Shown in pieces: positions 1 through 9,636 of a stretch of DNA of 64,000 bases. The DNA is taken from contig JAFGXY010000047.1 in the NCBI GenBank assembly GCA_016936395.1, positions 1 to 64,000 on the forward strand, written 5' to 3'. The translations under genes and the position numbers were made by a program. The notes under the pieces are model-generated. The model worked only from the letters and a program-made list of their open reading frames with translations. It made no database searches and was not told the origin of the DNA. This DNA comes from Paracoccaceae bacterium (GTDB taxonomy: Bacteria > Pseudomonadota > Alphaproteobacteria > Rhodobacterales > Rhodobacteraceae). Position 1 is the first letter of the stretch, and each line of letters opens with the position of its first letter.

Positions 1-1116
1 GGACTATGGACCCATGCCCCGCAGGAGGGGTCCCTTTTGGACGCCGATCACCCCGGTAGCGGGGTCACTATTGCGCGCCGATCAACATATTTGGCCTATG
101 TGACGGAGGCGCTTTGCGCCCAGTTGCGGATCGACAAGGTATCTGCGCCGAAAGCCAAGGCCTATATCCGCGGCATGCTGGAGCGCATTTTCCGCTCGGT
201 CCACGAGATGCTGCTATCCTCGATTCCAGGAAAGACGTTCTCCAACACCGTGCTGCGCGGAGAATACGACTCCGAGGCCGAAGCTGTCCTTAGCCTCGAT
301 GACCTGGTGCGAATTCTGACGATCTGGGTGGTGGACATCTACCATAACAGTCAGAACCTCGGCCGTGACGACTTGGCGCCGGCAGATCTCTGGGCGCACG
401 AAATGACTGTCGGCATGGGCTGCCGTCCCGTTCCGGGATTGAAAACACTGACCCATGTTTTCGGCACAACCCTCATGCGGCGGGCGCAACAGAACGGCAT
501 TCGCATCATGCATGCCAACTATTTTTCGAAAGAGTTTGCCCTTCACCTGTTGCGCGATCCCACCCGCCGGTTCCGGGTCCGGTGGTGGGAAGAAAACATG
601 AGCGAAGCTCAGGTGGAGATTCGGCCGAATGTATGGATACCACTCGAGGTCATGGACGAACGGGCAAGGGGCCTTAGTGTTGACGAGTGGATCCGGGTTT
701 TCGAGCGGGCGCATGTCAAACGCGATCCAAAAGCCGCCTCGCGACGTGAAATGGCCGAGGATGAGATTGATGCTCTGGTGCAAGACCGCATTGCACTGCG
801 CAGGAAAGTCAAACGCAAAACCTTCGCGACCGAGGCGGATCTTATGCGCCTTGAGGAGGCCACACTTCGCTTTTTCGTCACCCCGACCACGCGCATCACC
901 AGCGATCAAACCAGCGGGATCTATGGCGTGCCCATCGGCGCTCTGCCGGGGGCGGACGAGGTGGCGACCGACAGTAAAGCCGCCGCAAGTGCTTTGCCGG
1001 TGAAGCACAAAAATCAGACCGGCGGCGAGAAATCGATTGCGCCACCAAGGCCCGCTCAGTCGGCACCGCGCGGTCGGAGAAAAGCCACAACCTGGAAACC
1101 CGGAACAATGGAATGA
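1..1116 (+). CDS. TnsB/TniA-type DDE transposase, 5' end missing
   Basis: This is the C-terminal part of a Mu/TnsB-type transposase that performs 3'-end cleavage and strand transfer. The reading frame is open from base 1, so the gene starts before the window and the first two catalytic aspartates are not visible. The third acidic residue is probably the Glu coded at 181-183 in a GMLERIFRSV context, matching the Glu-Arg-x-Phe pattern of the integrase-fold third motif. A beta-rich Mu-C-like segment follows, then a basic, proline-rich tail. The stop overlaps the next start as ATGA, so it is translationally coupled to the TnsC-like ATPase. Identification rests on motif and gene order. Confidence 0.85.
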   Translation, partial: GLWTHAPQEGSLLDADHPGSGVTIARRSTYLAYVTEALCAQLRIDKVSAPKAKAYIRGMLERIFRSVHEMLLSSIPGKTFSNTVLRGEYDSEAEAVLSLDDLVRILTIWVVDIYHNSQNLGRDDLAPADLWAHEMTVGMGCRPVPGLKTLTHVFGTTLMRRAQQNGIRIMHANYFSKEFALHLLRDPTRRFRVRWWEENMSEAQVEIRPNVWIPLEVMDERARGLSVDEWIRVFERAHVKRDPKAASRREMAEDEIDALVQDRIALRRKVKRKTFATEADLMRLEEATLRFFVTPTTRITSDQTSGIYGVPIGALPGADEVATDSKAAASALPVKHKNQTGGEKSIAPPRPAQSAPRGRRKATTWKPGTME

Positions 1117-2237
1117 TCCCGATGGATAAGCTGGAAAACCAAATTGACAGCGCGAACCCGGCTGACACCGAGATCTTGCCGCTGACCGACCACGACCCGC
1201 GTCCACCGCTCAATGACACCCCGGCGCTCGTGGAATGGCTCTTTCGGCGGTATTACGTCAGCAGATGGGACAATGAATTCTTGGAGCGCCTCGGGATGGT
1301 TCTCCGGCGGGACAGGGATGGAAATCTGCTTCCGGAAGGCAAGCTGTTCCGCAGTGAGCGCAAGGGCGTTACGGTGACGGCCGCCTCACAGGACGGGAAA
1401 ACCGCGCTGGTCGTGCAAGTCCTCAAGCGGCTGTTCAACGACAGCTTCACGGACACGCGGTGTGGTGAAAAAATCGCATACTGTCGCCTTCGCACTGACG
1501 CAACTCTTACAAGCGTTTACAAGGATCTTTGCCGTTCGACCGGGTATTTCAATTTCCCTGCCAAGCTGACCCGGACAGAAGCCAATGATCTGGCCATGCA
1601 TTGTCTGCGCAAAAAGGGGATCACAATCATCGTCATCGACGAGATTCACAACCTTTTCAAGAACACCGAGCCGGTCAATCTTTTCCTCAGAACGCTCGTT
1701 CAGGATGGGACCGGCTTTTGCGTCATTCTGATCGGGACGCCAAAGGTGCATGACTTCATCTATGAAAACTCCGACAACATCGAGCTGGCAGAGCGCTATT
1801 TCGACATGGCCCTGGAACGGTTTCCGCGGGACGAAACCATTGGCCTCATCAGCGGCGCCCTGAAAGGATTGGCCACCGATGCCGGCATCAAACTCGCTAT
1901 GAGTATTCGCGCCGACCCCTATTTCGCCGACCGCATCTATGATGGTTGCCGCGGCAGCTACGGACGCTGCATGTTCCTGATCGCCAATTCTGTTGTGCGC
2001 GCCCTCGAGGAGGGTGGAGATACCGTCGACATCGAGGACTTCCGCCGGTTTTTCGGTCTGAAGTATCGGCACTTCAATCCTGAGAACCCGTTCAACATCA
2101 GTGACTGGGCGTCACGCGCAAGTGCCATCATGCTTGCCCCGCCGACTGCCGCGACGGACATTTACAATCAGGATCCCACCGAAAAGCCGAAGCGGAAACG
2201 CGGTCGGCCGCGCAAGACGGCAGAGGCGTCATCATGA
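1113..2237 (+). CDS. TnsC/TniB-type AAA+ transposition regulator
   Basis: A 374-residue ATPase that in Tn7/Tn5053-like systems links target recognition (TniQ/TnsD) to the transposase. A Walker A-like motif reads AASQDGKT near residue 90; the usual first glycine is replaced by alanine. A clear Walker B reads TIIVIDEIHNLF near residues 173-184, followed by an ILIGTP sensor-like strand. The last 20 residues are very basic and contain KRGRPRK, an AT-hook-like core, which is not a standard TniB feature as far as I know. The start overlaps the transposase stop (ATGA) and the stop overlaps tniQ in the same way. Length lies between TniB (about 300) and Tn7 TnsC (about 555). Confidence 0.85.
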   Translation: MIPMDKLENQIDSANPADTEILPLTDHDPRPPLNDTPALVEWLFRRYYVSRWDNEFLERLGMVLRRDRDGNLLPEGKLFRSERKGVTVTAASQDGKTALVVQVLKRLFNDSFTDTRCGEKIAYCRLRTDATLTSVYKDLCRSTGYFNFPAKLTRTEANDLAMHCLRKKGITIIVIDEIHNLFKNTEPVNLFLRTLVQDGTGFCVILIGTPKVHDFIYENSDNIELAERYFDMALERFPRDETIGLISGALKGLATDAGIKLAMSIRADPYFADRIYDGCRGSYGRCMFLIANSVVRALEEGGDTVDIEDFRRFFGLKYRHFNPENPFNISDWASRASAIMLAPPTAATDIYNQDPTEKPKRKRGRPRKTAEASS

Positions 2238-4225
2238 TCCGGTTTGCCCTGTCGCCACCTCTCCCCCTGCATGATGACGAAAATGGTCAGGGGTATTTTG
2301 CGCGGCTGGGCTATTTCCACGCCGGGGTAAGTGCTGGCAAGTTCTGTCGGTATTCAACCGTCGACAGGTTCGACTTCCGGTCCGGCAGAGCCCCATTTAT
2401 CGAGGCGGTCGCCGCTTTGTCTGGCGTTGAACTGGAGCGCATTGAGGCCAACACCCTGCGCCAGGATGGGGCCGATGTGTTCCATCTCCGAGGACAGAAA
2501 CTCGCGCTTCCGGTCGTCCGGAGGACATTTGCGCGCTTTTGCCCTGAATGCCTTCGTGCCGATACCGAAGGCTTTTCCGGTATCGCTGAGGGTGCATCCC
2601 GACTGCGGTGGGCATGGCTCTTGCGTCCAGTCGTTGCTTGTCCCATCCATAATGTGCGCTTGGCAGAGTTGCCCGCGCCAGATCCAGTCAACGCTTTTGA
2701 CCTTCCGAAGCTGTTCGCCCAGCAGGACGTTCAGCTTGCCGATATGACCAGCACTGACATCCTCGCACCGGGCCCACTTCAGCACTACGTCGTCAGCCGC
2801 TTGTCTGTGGGTGGGGCAGGGGGTGCGTGGCTGGATGGCCAAGACATCGCCCCGGCGGTCAAGGCATGCGAGATGCTGGGCGCGCTGATCGAGGGCGGAC
2901 CGACCGCGCAGGTGATCAATCATTCCGAGGAAGACTGGGCGCGGGTTGGCGATATCGGTTTTGAGGTCTGCTCCTCAGGTCCCGATGCGATCCTAGACGT
3001 CTTTGGGCGGTTGCGGGTGGCCGGCGGTCACACCAGTGGCCGTGCAGGGCCGCAGGCGGCCTACGGCTTTTTCTTCAACTGGTTGAAACACAACGCGCGG
3101 GCGCGGGACTCTGGTTTGCTTCGGGATATTTTGCGCGAAGCGATCGTCGAGAATTTTGCGATCGGACCGGGCGAGGTCATTCTGGGTCAGGAAATCACGC
3201 AGCGGCGCGTCCATTCCGTGAACTCACTCTCCCATGCGACCGGGCTTAATCGATGGCGGCTTTACAGGCTGATGCGCAAGGCCGGGATGATACCTGAAAC
3301 GGACGATGCCGCGGCATTCAACCAATGGGTATTTCCGGCTGAAGAGGGCGAGCGGCTGGTCGCCAGGGTCGCAAACTCTGTGCCTCTGAACAAGGTTCAA
3401 CACGTGCTGGGGTGCAGTAAAACCCAGGCAGAAGTTCTCGCGCAACACGGGCTGATTACCTCGGTCACGCCGATCGCAAACGATCAGATCGGCCAGACAT
3501 GGGGGCAGTTCAACCGGGATGATCTGGAGGCGTTCAACGATGAGGTGTTTCAAGACACGCGGTATCACACTTCTGAATCCGAAGATTTTGTCAGCTTGAC
3601 GGCGGCGGTAACAGGCAAGTCGTCAACGGCCGAGATACTGCAGTGGCAACTTGGTGGACAACTGCGCGGGACCCGTCTTCTGGATGGCGTCCGACGGCTT
3701 GATCACCTGCGGTTTGATCGGCAGGCGATATTGTCACTGGCGAAGGAACGGCGCGGATCCGACCTCAACCGCGTCACGCTTGTTGCCACGATCCTCGGTA
3801 TTTCGCCGAAGTCAGTCAAAAAGCTTCTGAAAGCAAAGAGCAGCGGTCCACGGCTTTCGCCAGCGGCTGCTTCCGCCATCGCAGACCTGCAAGGCACCGC
3901 CTATGTCTCGACAGCTGAAATTGAACGATTTCTCTCCGAATACATCACGCTTGCTTTGGTTGCCCGCCAAGTCGGACGGCATTTCACCTCCGTCCGTCGG
4001 GAGCTGAACAAGGCTGGCATCGTGCCTGCCACAGATGCCTCGTCCCTCGGCGCTCGGATCTATCGGCGCGCTGATGTGGCGGCGCTCATCGCCTCACAGG
4101 GCATGCAGCCATCAGTGCCGACGAATATTGGAAAACACGCGCCCGTCGACGCTGTTTTCGGCAATAAAACCGTGATATCTGGCAATAATGGCGATTTTGG
4201 TGAATCCGATGATGTCATTTTGTGA
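2234..4225 (+). CDS. TniQ/TnsD-family target-selection protein
   Basis: A 663-residue TniQ-domain protein, expected to bind the target DNA and recruit the TnsC-type ATPase. The N-terminal part carries a TniQ zinc-binding pattern, FCPEC near residue 105 followed by ACPIH about 35 residues later. The long C-terminal part has several stretches resembling helix-turn-helix units (for example around LSHATGLNRWRLYRLMRKAG and LVARQVGRHFTSVRRELNKAG), as in TnsD-like proteins. It is longer than classical TniQ (about 400) and TnsD (about 508). Its last 22 codons coincide with the repeats of the transposon end, so coding and end functions overlap. It is coupled to tnsC by ATGA. Confidence 0.85.
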   Translation: MIRFALSPPLPLHDDENGQGYFARLGYFHAGVSAGKFCRYSTVDRFDFRSGRAPFIEAVAALSGVELERIEANTLRQDGADVFHLRGQKLALPVVRRTFARFCPECLRADTEGFSGIAEGASRLRWAWLLRPVVACPIHNVRLAELPAPDPVNAFDLPKLFAQQDVQLADMTSTDILAPGPLQHYVVSRLSVGGAGGAWLDGQDIAPAVKACEMLGALIEGGPTAQVINHSEEDWARVGDIGFEVCSSGPDAILDVFGRLRVAGGHTSGRAGPQAAYGFFFNWLKHNARARDSGLLRDILREAIVENFAIGPGEVILGQEITQRRVHSVNSLSHATGLNRWRLYRLMRKAGMIPETDDAAAFNQWVFPAEEGERLVARVANSVPLNKVQHVLGCSKTQAEVLAQHGLITSVTPIANDQIGQTWGQFNRDDLEAFNDEVFQDTRYHTSESEDFVSLTAAVTGKSSTAEILQWQLGGQLRGTRLLDGVRRLDHLRFDRQAILSLAKERRGSDLNRVTLVATILGISPKSVKKLLKAKSSGPRLSPAAASAIADLQGTAYVSTAEIERFLSEYITLALVARQVGRHFTSVRRELNKAGIVPATDASSLGARIYRRADVAALIASQGMQPSVPTNIGKHAPVDAVFGNKTVISGNNGDFGESDDVIL

Positions 4226-4243
4226 ATCCGATGCGTCACCCAT
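4160..4243 (+). repeat. Candidate TnsB-binding iterons in the right end
   Basis: Short repeats occur at near-helical spacing. GGCAATAA is at 4160 and 4181 (21 bp apart), and GTGAATCCGATG is at 4200 and 4222 (22 bp apart). The 22 bp period is like that of the overlapping TnsB sites in the right end of Tn7. They begin inside the tniQ 3' end and continue past its stop at 4225. GTCACCCAT at 4235-4243 also recurs inverted as ATGGGTGAC at 4306-4314, near the presumed terminus. Binding by the transposase is inference. Confidence 0.6.
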
Positions 4244-4351
4244 CTCGTTCGGCAGAACGCGGCTTCAACGAAATCAGTTACTTAAGGTCCAAAATTGTGC
4301 TTTTTATGGGTGACTCTACAGTGAATTGCGCCAAGCAAAGGAAATGATCTT

Positions 4352-5350: not shown

Positions 5351-6505
5351 ATGGGCCGGGTCATGGTGCGCGAATTGGCCCTGCTGCTGCGCCGCCCGGT
5401 CTTGTTGGGGCTGGTGGTGGTGTTGCCGGTGCTGCTGATCGCGCTGCTCACCAGTATCTTTCGTGCAGGAATTCCCACCGGCATGGCCGTGGCCGTGGTC
5501 GATCTTGACCGGTCTGACCTGTCGCGCAGCATCACCCGGATGCTGGATGCGGCCCCCGAAGTGCAGGTCACGCATCAGGCGCTTAACCTGTCCGAGGCGC
5601 GCGCCCTGATCGTTTCTGGCGCGGTGCGCGGGGCAGTCTGGCTGCCTGCGGGGCTGGAGCGGGACATGACGCGCGGCGAGCGGCCCGAGATCGTGACCTT
5701 CTACGACAACCAGTACATGAGTGCGGGGTCGATGGTTGCACGGGGTGCGCGGGGCGCGATCGACACAGCCCTCGCCGGTCTGCGCCTGTCGATCCGGCAA
5801 GGCAAAGGCGAGGCGCCCGCGCAGGCGCAATCGGCCCTGCAACCGATCCCGATGCAAACCCATGCGCTGTTCAACCCGGCGTTTGATTATGTGCATTTCC
5901 TGCTCGCGGCGCTGGTGCCGACAGTTTTGCAGATCTTGGCGGCGGCAGGGACGGCCTATGCCATTTCGCTGGATTTCGGTCCCGGTCGTGATCCGCGCGA
6001 CCTGGTTCGACTGGCGGGCGGCATTCTACCTGCGATGTTGGGCAAGATTCTGCCCTATACCGGGGCGTTCCTGTTGGTTCTCGGGCTGTCGGATGTGGTG
6101 CTGTATGGCTGGCTTGGCGTGCCGTTGCGCGGATCCCTGCCGCTGATGGCGGCAGGCGCGGTTCTGTTCGTGCTGGCAGCGCAGTTGATCGGCACTCTGG
6201 CCTTTGTGCTGACGCGCAACATCGGCACGGCGGCCAGCATCGTCGCGGTGATCACCGCCCCGGCCTTCGGCTATATGGGTCTTGGTTTCCCGCGCGAAGC
6301 GATGTCGCCGGTGGCGCAGGCGTGGGGCGCGCTGATCCCCGGCACATGGTATGTGCAATTGCGCATCGACCAATCGCTGCGCGCGACGCCGGTCGAGATT
6401 TCGATCTGGCCTGTTCTGTGGCTGGCGCTGATCGCGCTGGGGCTTGCAGCGCTGGTGCTGGCGCAACTGACGCGCCTGCACCGGACAGGCACGGTGGCGA
6501 CATGA
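5351..6505 (+). CDS. ABC-2 type permease (first of two)
   Basis: A 384-residue inner-membrane permease of the ABC-2 type (YhhJ/YbhS/YbhR-like). It has one N-terminal membrane segment (about 15-38), a large periplasmic domain (YDNQYMS near residue 118 is typical of the family), then about five C-terminal membrane helices. No ATP-binding cassette is fused to it. It overlaps the next permease by ATGA, indicating tight co-translation and probably a heterodimer. Confidence 0.85.
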   Translation: MGRVMVRELALLLRRPVLLGLVVVLPVLLIALLTSIFRAGIPTGMAVAVVDLDRSDLSRSITRMLDAAPEVQVTHQALNLSEARALIVSGAVRGAVWLPAGLERDMTRGERPEIVTFYDNQYMSAGSMVARGARGAIDTALAGLRLSIRQGKGEAPAQAQSALQPIPMQTHALFNPAFDYVHFLLAALVPTVLQILAAAGTAYAISLDFGPGRDPRDLVRLAGGILPAMLGKILPYTGAFLLVLGLSDVVLYGWLGVPLRGSLPLMAAGAVLFVLAAQLIGTLAFVLTRNIGTAASIVAVITAPAFGYMGLGFPREAMSPVAQAWGALIPGTWYVQLRIDQSLRATPVEISIWPVLWLALIALGLAALVLAQLTRLHRTGTVAT

Positions 6506-7665
6506 ACGCCGTGCTGCGCGCGATGCGCGATGAATTGCGGGCGTTGTTCGGCGATGCGCAGGTGCTGTCGATCCTGCTGGTGTCGCTGCTCATTTATGCC
6601 GTGATCTACCCGCTGCCCTACCGGGCAGAACTGTTGCGCGATGTGCCCGTGGTGTTGGTCGATCAGGACCGCACGACCGCCTCGGCCGACCTTGCCCGCC
6701 GGGTTGATGCCTCGGAGGCGGTCGCTATTCGCACCGACGCGCGCGACATGGCGCAAGCTGTGCGGCTGGTGCAGGAACGCCGCGCCTACGGTGTGCTGCT
6801 GATCCCCGAAGGATTTGAGCGCCAACTGCTGCGCGGGCGGCAAAGCCCGGTCGCGGTCTATGCCGATGCCAGCTATTTTCTGATGTATCAGCGCGTCATG
6901 CAAGGCGCTGCCGTGCCGATCCGCCAGATGGGGGCCGAGGTCGAGGTGGGGCGGCTGATGGCCGCGGGCGCAGCACTTCAGGTGGCGCGGGCGCAGGTCA
7001 GCCCGGCCACTCAGGTGGAGGTACCGCTGTTCAACCCAGCTGCGGGATACGCCACCTATGTCTTGCCGGCGGCTTTCGTGTTGATCCTGCAACAGACCAT
7101 CCTGATGGGGCTTGCCCTGGCCGCCACGCGGCGCTTGCAGGGGGCAGGTAATCCGGTGGTGCTGGTGCTGGGGCGCATGGCCGCGTGGGTCGCGATCTAT
7201 GCGGTGCTGCTGCCGATCTATCTGATCGTGCTGCCCGCGCTTTACGGTCTGCCGAATTTGGGGCGTGTCCGCGATGCTCTTGCCATCGGCTTGCCGTTCG
7301 TTCTGGCAGCCGGCTTGCTGGCCCAATGCGTGGCTGCAGTGTTCAGATCCGACGCGGTGGTTCAGATCGTTCTGCTGGCGTTGGGGTTACCGTTCTTCTT
7401 TCTGTCCGGCTTTGCCTGGCCGGTTGAAGCCATTCCACCGGTGTTGAACGCCGTGGCCCAGCTTGTGCCATCTACGCCCGCGATCTCTGGCTTGGTCCGC
7501 GTCAGCCAGATGGGTGCACAACTGCCGGATGTTGCGATGCCCCTGTGGCACCTTTGGGCCCTGACGGCGGGGTTCGGCCTTCTTGCCGTGCTGATCCAAA
7601 CCCTGCAAACCAGATCAGCGTCCGGGTTGAGCGACATGCAGGCAACAGGCAGATCGGAAACCTGA
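6502..7665 (+). CDS. ABC-2 type permease (second of two)
   Basis: A 387-residue paralogue of the preceding permease with the same layout: one N-terminal membrane helix, a periplasmic domain containing YADASYFLMYQ, and a C-terminal helix bundle. The chosen ATG at 6502 overlaps the upstream stop; longer in-frame extensions would run deep into the upstream gene. The adaptor plus two permeases form a complete export pore apart from the ATPase. No nucleotide-binding protein is encoded between the two transposon-end copies, so the energy source must be supplied elsewhere or has been lost. Confidence 0.85.
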   Translation: MNAVLRAMRDELRALFGDAQVLSILLVSLLIYAVIYPLPYRAELLRDVPVVLVDQDRTTASADLARRVDASEAVAIRTDARDMAQAVRLVQERRAYGVLLIPEGFERQLLRGRQSPVAVYADASYFLMYQRVMQGAAVPIRQMGAEVEVGRLMAAGAALQVARAQVSPATQVEVPLFNPAAGYATYVLPAAFVLILQQTILMGLALAATRRLQGAGNPVVLVLGRMAAWVAIYAVLLPIYLIVLPALYGLPNLGRVRDALAIGLPFVLAAGLLAQCVAAVFRSDAVVQIVLLALGLPFFFLSGFAWPVEAIPPVLNAVAQLVPSTPAISGLVRVSQMGAQLPDVAMPLWHLWALTAGFGLLAVLIQTLQTRSASGLSDMQATGRSET

Positions 7666-7850
7666 GGCATGCGGGGGGATGGGCCATTTGCGCCAAATGC
7701 CAGAACCGTTTCCGCACCTTCGGTCATAAACGTGCCAAGATCGGGCGGACCAGACCGTCATGTTGGTGCGGGATGATTGCTTTGGCCGCCACGTATGGCG
7801 CAGACCCTGCGTCATAGGGCCTTTGGTCCATGCAAATTCCACCGGTGTGA

Positions 7851-7991
7851 CGGTCTGTTCGTTGTGCTGCGGCATGCGGTGTTTCCGACCCCCGCGAGAA
7901 AACAACCGAAAAACAGGCGGTTTCCGGCGACACTGCGGTCGCTTTGACCGCAAATAAGATCCTTGGTGAACCTTCCGATGCCGTTGTGTGA
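7851..7991 (+). pseudogene. Possible remnant of a second tniQ 3' end
   Basis: In one frame this short stretch ends in GEPSDAVV followed by a TGA at 7989-7991. It lies at the same place relative to the downstream repeats as the intact TniQ C-terminus, which ends GESDDVIL. The two endings align as G-E-(P)-S-D-x-V-hydrophobic-stop. Upstream, the same frame is closed by stops at 7815 and 7848, so any gene is truncated. This could reflect shared transposon-end DNA alone rather than protein homology. Confidence 0.35.
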
Positions 7992-8083
7992 ATTCTATGC
8001 GTCATTTCGAACCGGAAGCATCCGCGATCTAGGAAAATCAGTGGTTTACGTTTAACGCTGTGCTTTTTATGGCGCAGTCCAGA
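7926..8083 (+). repeat. Degenerate second copy of the transposon right end
   Basis: This is in the same orientation as the end at 4.16-4.32 kb. Shared blocks in the same order are: GTGAA units 22 bp apart (7966 and 7988; compare 4200 and 4222), GTGAAT-n3-ATGCGTCA (7988-8004; compare 4222-4238), AAATCAGT (8035-8042; compare 4271-4278) and GTGCTTTTTATGG (8060-8072; compare 4297-4309). The distance from the first to the last shared base is 85 bp here and 88 bp in the intact copy. The terminal ACA (TGT inward) has become AGA, and the 9-bp inverted repeat is lost, consistent with decay. Confidence 0.7.
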
Positions 8084-8184
8084 CCGCTTTGAATCGGTTT
8101 GCTGCAATGCTAGACTTTTTCGACGATCGCCCTTAGAAGGCGTCGTTAGCGCTAATGGCGCATCGCAACCGAAGAGGTAACGTC

Positions 8185-9636
8185 ATGGTGTCGCGTGTTA
8201 TCCCGGTCGAGCCTTTCGATCTTGTGATCTTCGGCGGCACCGGCGATCTGGCACGACGCAAGATCTTTCCGGGGCTGTATCGGCGGTTTCTGGCCGGGCA
8301 GATGACGGCTGACAGCCGGATCATCGGTGCGGCGCGGGCCGAATTGTCTGACGACGATTTCCGCGCCACCGTGGCCAAGGCGATTGCAGAATTTGTCTCG
8401 GAATCGCGGCAAGACCCGGCGATGATCGCCGAATTCCTTACCCGTCTGCATTATGTGGCGATTGATGCCACCGGTGCGGGCGGCTGGGCCGCGCTGAAAG
8501 ACCTGATGCGCGAGGGCGTGGTGAGGGCGTTCTATTTCTCGGTGGCACCCACGCTCTTTGGCGATATCGCACTGCGTCTGAGTCAGCATGGTGTGGCCGA
8601 TGCGGCATCGCGGATCGTGGTGGAAAAGCCGTTCGGTCGCGATCTGGCCTCGGCGCGGGCGTTGAACGCGACGCTGGCGCTGCACTTTGACGAGACCCAG
8701 ATTTACCGCATCGACCACTACCTTGGCAAAGAGACGGTGCAGAACCTGATGGCCGTGCGTTTTGCCAACATCCTGTTCGAGCCGTTGTGGAAGGCCGAAT
8801 ACGTCGACCATGTGCAGATCACGGTTGCCGAAACCGTGGGGGTAGAGGGCCGCGGCGCCTATTACGACAAGTCGGGCGCGATGCGCGATATGGTGCAAAA
8901 CCATATGATGCAGCTTTTGTGCCTGATCGCGATGGAGCCGCCCTATCACTTTGACCCCAACGCGGTGCGCGATGAAAAGCTGAAGGTCATTCGCGCGCTG
9001 GACCCGGTTCGCCCGCAAGATATCGTGCGTGGTCAATATCTGGCCGGGGGCGGGCAGGGGGCCTATACCGCCCATAGCGAAAACCCCCATTCCACCACCG
9101 AAAGCTACATCGCGCTGCGGGTGCATGTGTCGAACTGGCGCTGGAAGGGCACGCCGTTTTATCTGCGCACCGGCAAACGGTTGCGGGCGCGGGCGTCGGA
9201 AATTGCCATCACCTTCAAGGAACCGCCGCATTCGATCTTTGACGACGCGCAGGGCTGGCGCGAAAATGTGCTGGTGATCCGGTTGCAGCCCGATGAAGGC
9301 ATGCACCTGAAAGTCATGATCAAGGAACCCGGCCCGGGCGGCATGCGGCTGATGCAGGTGCCGCTGGACATGTCCTTTGCCGATGCGCTTGGCGATGATC
9401 ACGACGATTTGCCCGATGCCTATGAACGGCTGATCATGGATGTGATCCGCGGTAACCAGACCCTGTTCATGCGCGGCGACGAGGTCGAGGCTGCCTGGGC
9501 CTGGACTGATCCGATCATCGAGGGCTGGACCGCGCGCGGCGACAAGCCGCAAAGCTATGATCCTGGGACATCGGGCCCCGAAGATGCGCTGATGCTGATG
9601 CACCGCGACGGCCGCCGCTGGCGGGAGATCAGGTGA
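8185..9636 (+). CDS. zwf: Glucose-6-phosphate 1-dehydrogenase
   Basis: Oxidises glucose-6-phosphate to 6-phosphogluconolactone with NAD(P)+, the entry to the Entner-Doudoroff and pentose phosphate routes. The 483-residue protein has the nucleotide-binding motif FGGTGDLARRK near the N-terminus, the EKPFGRDL segment, and the substrate/catalytic motif RIDHYLGKE near residue 180. The ATG at 8185 is chosen because GAAGAGG lies just upstream and the N-terminus then fits the family. It is the first gene of zwf-pgl-pgi. The degenerate transposon end stops about 100 bp before it, so its promoter region abuts the insertion. Confidence 0.97.
   Translation: MVSRVIPVEPFDLVIFGGTGDLARRKIFPGLYRRFLAGQMTADSRIIGAARAELSDDDFRATVAKAIAEFVSESRQDPAMIAEFLTRLHYVAIDATGAGGWAALKDLMREGVVRAFYFSVAPTLFGDIALRLSQHGVADAASRIVVEKPFGRDLASARALNATLALHFDETQIYRIDHYLGKETVQNLMAVRFANILFEPLWKAEYVDHVQITVAETVGVEGRGAYYDKSGAMRDMVQNHMMQLLCLIAMEPPYHFDPNAVRDEKLKVIRALDPVRPQDIVRGQYLAGGGQGAYTAHSENPHSTTESYIALRVHVSNWRWKGTPFYLRTGKRLRARASEIAITFKEPPHSIFDDAQGWRENVLVIRLQPDEGMHLKVMIKEPGPGGMRLMQVPLDMSFADALGDDHDDLPDAYERLIMDVIRGNQTLFMRGDEVEAAWAWTDPIIEGWTARGDKPQSYDPGTSGPEDALMLMHRDGRRWREIR

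Follow-up and report, generated by a model that had tools for sequence, protein, structure and literature searches.

Repeated occupation, or stacking, of one attachment site by Tn7-like elements is known in kind. According to the parts of the literature covered here, conserved genes serve Tn7 and its relatives as insertion sites, either within them or behind them (PMC11406308), a second insertion close to a resident Tn7 is strongly inhibited by that element (PMC11406308), and multicopy integration at one locus is cited from another study (PMC12452197). The locus described here resembles Tn7 at attTn7 (the 3′ end of glmS) and the Tn7-like elements at other fixed genes, as far as excerpts of the two papers describe these, in its tnsB-tnsC-tniQ genes, in TGT/ACA ends with 22-bp repeated sites, in 5-bp target duplications, in insertion a short distance behind a conserved gene and in the carriage of putative defence genes as cargo (PMC11406308, PMC6360697). 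It differs in lying behind an HNH endonuclease gene, a site that those excerpts do not mention (PMC11406308, PMC6360697), and in an ORF in the tnsA position for which no family or structure match was obtained.

Among the matches listed in the literature search, judged by titles, abstract starts and term counts, no paper names an HNH gene as a Tn7-like site. The term "HNH" has zero occurrences in PMC10293859, PMC8649781, PMC11406308 and PMC6360697. The site was not found in the portions covered of these four papers, PMC12452197 and PMC9608740. Tn7-like elements behind fixed genes were already known; the HNH gene is, on these partial sources, possibly a new site for them. Compared with the known cases of repeated occupation, the locus again shows two related elements at one site, of which the older is decayed and further from the target gene, but the older unit is here reduced to one end and its probable cargo.

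The window and its newer element

The window, that is, the whole stretch of DNA analysed, comprises 64,000 nt of the Paracoccaceae bacterium assembly GCA_016936395.1 (contig JAFGXY010000047.1, positions 1-64,000, forward strand). The source genome is referred to as G000 and the window contig as C14. The HNH flank lies on a separate contig, C71; the two contigs are not physically joined, the assembly breaking between them. The features of the window are as follows.

82..1116, + strand: tnsB of the newer element, 3′ part only, the contig beginning shortly before (82-1113 matches residues 438-768 of the TnsB of G005 at 63% identity)
1113..2237, + strand: tnsC of the newer element (Pfam AAA_22 and TniB)
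2234..4225, + strand: tniQ of the newer element (Pfam TniQ, E = 1.5e-15)
4195..4320, + strand: tniQ-side end of the newer element, terminus ACA
4321..4325, no strand: GTGAA target duplication, the other copy preceding the HNH-side end on C71 of the same genome
4352..5344, + strand: hlyD-type adaptor gene (Pfam HlyD_D23), probable cargo of the older element
5351..6505, + strand: first ABC-2 type permease gene (Pfam ABC2_membrane_3)
6502..7665, + strand: second ABC-2 type permease gene (Pfam ABC2_membrane_3)
7753..7957, no strand: unassigned stretch from the end of the G012 match to the fossil end, which may hold a weakly indicated tniQ tail
7958..8083, + strand: fossil tniQ-side end of the older element, terminus AGA
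8084..8088, no strand: CCGCT, expected target copy of the older insertion, partner absent
8084..8184, + strand: host zwf upstream region, partly conserved in sister genomes
8185..9636, + strand: zwf, glucose-6-phosphate dehydrogenase (Pfam G6PD_N and G6PD_C)

The newer element thus encodes a TnsC-type ATPase and a TniQ protein, together with a TnsB whose counterpart in G005 matches solved TnsB chains (E 1.5e-17). Its HNH-side end was located on C71, where the HNH gene (Pfam HNH) is followed by 20 bp and then by TGTAAAGGATACC. The TGT/ACA ends are represented by TGTAAAGG on C71 and by the ACA at 4320, and the 5-bp target duplication by GTGAA, which precedes the end on C71 and follows 4320. A 94% identical copy extends over 3,291 bp in G059, a genome of another genus, and this match stops exactly at 4320. 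Among the cargo on C71 is the gene of an AIPR protein similar to MzaE (L063 4023-5843), probably a defence gene; in the element of G005, a type I restriction system lies next to the tns genes.

Residues 1-437 of TnsB were not found in the source genome's assembly, although a poor 33% match to residues 448-592, with two stops, is present on C52. The ORF preceding tnsB in G005, in the tnsA position, gave no match in Pfam, NCBIfam or PDB and was likewise not found in the source genome, a type of search in which an empty result shows little. The newer element is therefore damaged or incompletely assembled, and its middle is missing from the assembly. It should also be noted that contig positions 1-81 cut into tnsB, and that similar sequence ends C71 and starts C52; presumably IS21-like ends sit at these contig edges.

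The second tniQ-side end, upstream of zwf

The sequence of 7958-8083 identifies this stretch as a tniQ-side end of Tn7-like type. GTGAA pairs 22 bp apart are found at 4200/4222 in the newer end and at 7966/7988 in the fossil end, and at both places they are followed in the same order by ATGCGTCA, AAATCAGT and GTGCTTTTTATGG. Alignment of 4195-4320 with 7958-8083 showed 74 of 123 aligned positions to be identical, with a local alignment score of 38, as against a best score of 24 for random window stretches (n = 4,944) and of 30 for mononucleotide shuffles (n = 5,000); dinucleotide shuffles (n = 2,000, earlier run) averaged 16.5 and reached at most 39, which exceeds the observed score. A profile was also built from three other ends (the newer end of G000 and those of G059 and G005), with the fossil left out, and searched against the window and the fetched loci. 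It matched 7963-8081 with E = 3.1e-8, and the repeated sites of the family are present in this match.

These results bear out the core of the preliminary description, which had listed four blocks shared by the two places, all of them recovered here in the order and spacing given, and had taken the second place for what is left of an earlier, related Tn7-like element that used the target of the newer one. Of the signs of decay that it listed, the changed terminus was confirmed, since 8083 ends in AGA where the five other ends with a defined terminus (newer G000, G059, G005/G432, G416 and G351) have ACA, that of G393 not being well defined. The loss of the inverted repeat, by contrast, is no sign of decay, because the end of G005 lacks it too. 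Its comparison of a frame ending GEPSDAVV with the end of TniQ proved weak, with shuffle fractions of 0.02 against G000, 0.09 against G005 and 0.53 against G393; for the DNA upstream of the fossil end, they ranged from 0.06 to 0.65, and a tniQ remnant at this place was not retained.

No clear tns genes of the older element were recognised beside the fossil end, its HNH-side end is not left in G000, and the CCGCT at 8084 has no partner copy by the HNH flank. The older element is treated as a remnant rather than as an element because of the lack of a clear tns remnant and of this partner. An old HNH-side end directly after 4325 was considered, since TTGCGCCA resembles the reversed fossil terminus, and was discarded, as these bases also align with the leader of hlyD in G012; the hlyD leader of G006 is unlike either.

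The hlyD gene and the two ABC-2 permease genes match G012 at about 85% and G006 at 73%, in both cases in other surroundings. A divergent set is present in G003, and the remaining matches among 61 genomes are short. These genes are probably the cargo of the older element.

From 8084 on, the sequence is that of the zwf upstream region. A palindrome, GTTAGCGCTAA(T/C), lies at 8145-8156 before zwf and is present in most of the sister upstream regions compared, though not in G003, the closest sister; it resembles a regulator site.

The attachment site behind the HNH gene

The target of these elements is the 3′ end of the HNH endonuclease gene that precedes zwf. The region upstream of zwf, which had been proposed as the target, was rejected because it is from the HNH stop that the elements keep a nearly constant distance, and because the element in G432 is flanked by a gene that we take to be mgtC-like, with zwf following only later (L090). 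The region behind HNH was examined in 22 genomes, seven of which carry an HNH-side end, the other 15 having none when judged by eye. Six of the seven readable ends start 19-21 bp after the HNH stop, at +19 (G351), +20 (G000, G393, G416 and, with a changed terminus, G398) and +21 (G005). The seventh, in G432, belongs to an element that shares 98% identity with the G005 element over 3,951 bp, yet starts at +84 with a clean TCGGG duplication (L094 2086-2169, L090 4042), so that the distance to the HNH stop is not strictly fixed.

G000, G005 and G432 have matching target duplications. In G416, GGTGGT is found on both sides, equal to a 5-bp copy with a one-base slip, and no match was found in G351 or G393. 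The HNH side of the G059 element is absent from that assembly; another contig of G059 carries HNH and the same flank without the element, and fits an insertion at +20 in four of the five duplicated bases. The HNH gene itself is present in all 17 genomes chosen and in all six genomes behind a set of named loci. No such end was found behind HNH in Ruegeria intermedia, whose TniQ is 29% identical.

An empty site, of the kind that the preliminary description suggested seeking in sister genomes, is present in G003, where HNH and zwf are 118 bp apart. When the HNH flank as far as +16 is joined to 8084-8184, the spacer measures 117 bp, and the older insertion accordingly falls at +17 to +21, the position seen in G005; the joined site agrees with G003 in only 72 of 119 aligned columns. 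With the flanks joined, CCGCT at 8084-8088 would correspond to these same positions after the HNH stop. Positions 8084-8092, CCGCTTTGA, form the right half of an inverted repeat (CCAAAGCGCTTTG) found upstream of zwf in several sisters; here the older insertion split it.

Profiles of both ends were searched against 394 genomes of the family, a size at which the search filters lose weak matches. The tniQ-side profile, with the fossil included, matched six genomes at E ≤ 0.01: G000 (at two places), G059, G351, G393, G416 and, weakly, G157. The HNH-side profile matched 13. Five of its places fell below 1e-6 (G351, G393, G000, G416 and G398), all 19-20 bp behind HNH, four of the five being training sequences; the nine other places (E 8.6e-6 to 0.009) had no HNH match in flanks of about 1.5 kb. 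tnsC was detected at E ≤ 1e-60 in four of the 394 genomes.

Decayed elements occupy the same position behind HNH in G416 and G398, and neither genome has a tnsC match at 1e-60. A profile built without the HNH-side end of G416 detected this end at 2.8e-15. The G416 element shares the site and the family of ends with the fossil and likewise has no tnsABC in the stretch searched; it differs in that both ends are kept, 1,705 bp apart, with 113 aa of tniQ (70% identity) and what we take by eye to be an IS-like gene, and in that no newer element lies beside it.

Two further matches were noted away from this site. The weak tniQ-side-end-like match in G157 (L110, about 3656-3722, E = 0.007) has no HNH, zwf, mgtC, tns, tniQ or hlyD/ABC match in 6.5 kb and is perhaps an orphan end elsewhere. 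The HNH-side-end-like match in G318 (L116, about 1501-1571, E = 8.6e-6) begins with TGTAAAGG, has none of these matches in about 1.5 kb on each side and is perhaps a related element at another target.

Probable order of insertion and decay

The order of the locus, with the newer element nearest HNH and hlyD, the two ABC permeases and the old end beyond it, is very probably the outcome of serial occupation and decay of Tn7-like elements at one attachment site behind HNH. The place just behind the HNH gene would be an attachment site of a Tn7-like family in these Rhodobacteraceae. The older element probably inserted about 21 bp after the HNH stop and then decayed, with loss of its HNH-side end and tns genes, so that hlyD and the two ABC permease genes came to adjoin the HNH flank at about +16, while its tniQ-side end would survive, with a mutated terminus, at 7958-8083. 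As the HNH 3′ end stayed intact, a second, related element probably entered later at +20, which duplicated GTGAA and pushed the older remains towards zwf, away from HNH. That this insertion fell inside the older element, as had been suggested, is no more than possible, the HNH-side end of that element having been lost; what remains of it has the newer element at its HNH-side boundary, next to the hlyD leader.

It is suspected that TniQ recognises the HNH 3′ end and that decay of the old ends allowed re-entry, which would be explained if dead ends lose the Tn7-type inhibition of a second insertion. The wider proposal, which we consider evenly balanced between right and wrong, is that the TniQ of a Tn7-like clade in Rhodobacteraceae reads the HNH 3′ end directly, as a homing site not described before, and that this site is refilled repeatedly, as dead ends give no target immunity, leaving a layered insertion record with stranded cargo.

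The older unit might instead have been non-autonomous, with hlyD/ABC between two ends, moved by a related transposase and never possessing tns genes of its own, in keeping with the lack of a clear tns remnant beside the fossil end. This appears unlikely, given that the decayed element of G416 kept both ends and a piece of tniQ with no tnsABC in the stretch searched, so that tns loss from a full element suffices for the state of the older unit; nor is an old HNH-side end visible in G000. That the two ends share orientation and family would also suit one large element with its outer end at 8083, an internal end copy at 4320 and hlyD/ABC as cargo beyond tniQ, which is very improbable: 8083 was rejected as the outer end of the current element because the GTGAA before the HNH-side end pairs with 4321-4325 and not with CCGCT at 8084-8088, the G059 element ends at the equivalent of 4320, and the terminus at 8083 is AGA. 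That 7958-8083 is a conserved zwf promoter, a possibility raised in the preliminary description, or a chance resemblance is hardly credible, even though the stretch adjoins the conserved zwf upstream region and one of at least 2,000 dinucleotide shuffles reached the observed score, given the profile match, the scores of at most 24 for random stretches and a search with 7900-8200 in 41 genomes, of which 38 had no match and, besides the source genome, two sisters matched from 8079 and 8103 only, that is, in the zwf promoter, the conserved part of which begins right after 8083. For 7958-8083, neither of the findings that would have contradicted the preliminary description was obtained, namely its presence in genomes lacking the element or its identity with a conserved promoter.

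Serial occupation followed by decay at this locus suggests that Rhodobacteraceae have a site where Tn7-like elements land recurrently, with layered insertion and decay taking place there. Such layering would strand cargo genes in the chromosome, and with relatives such as the element of G005 the choice of a new target by TniQ can be tested directly.
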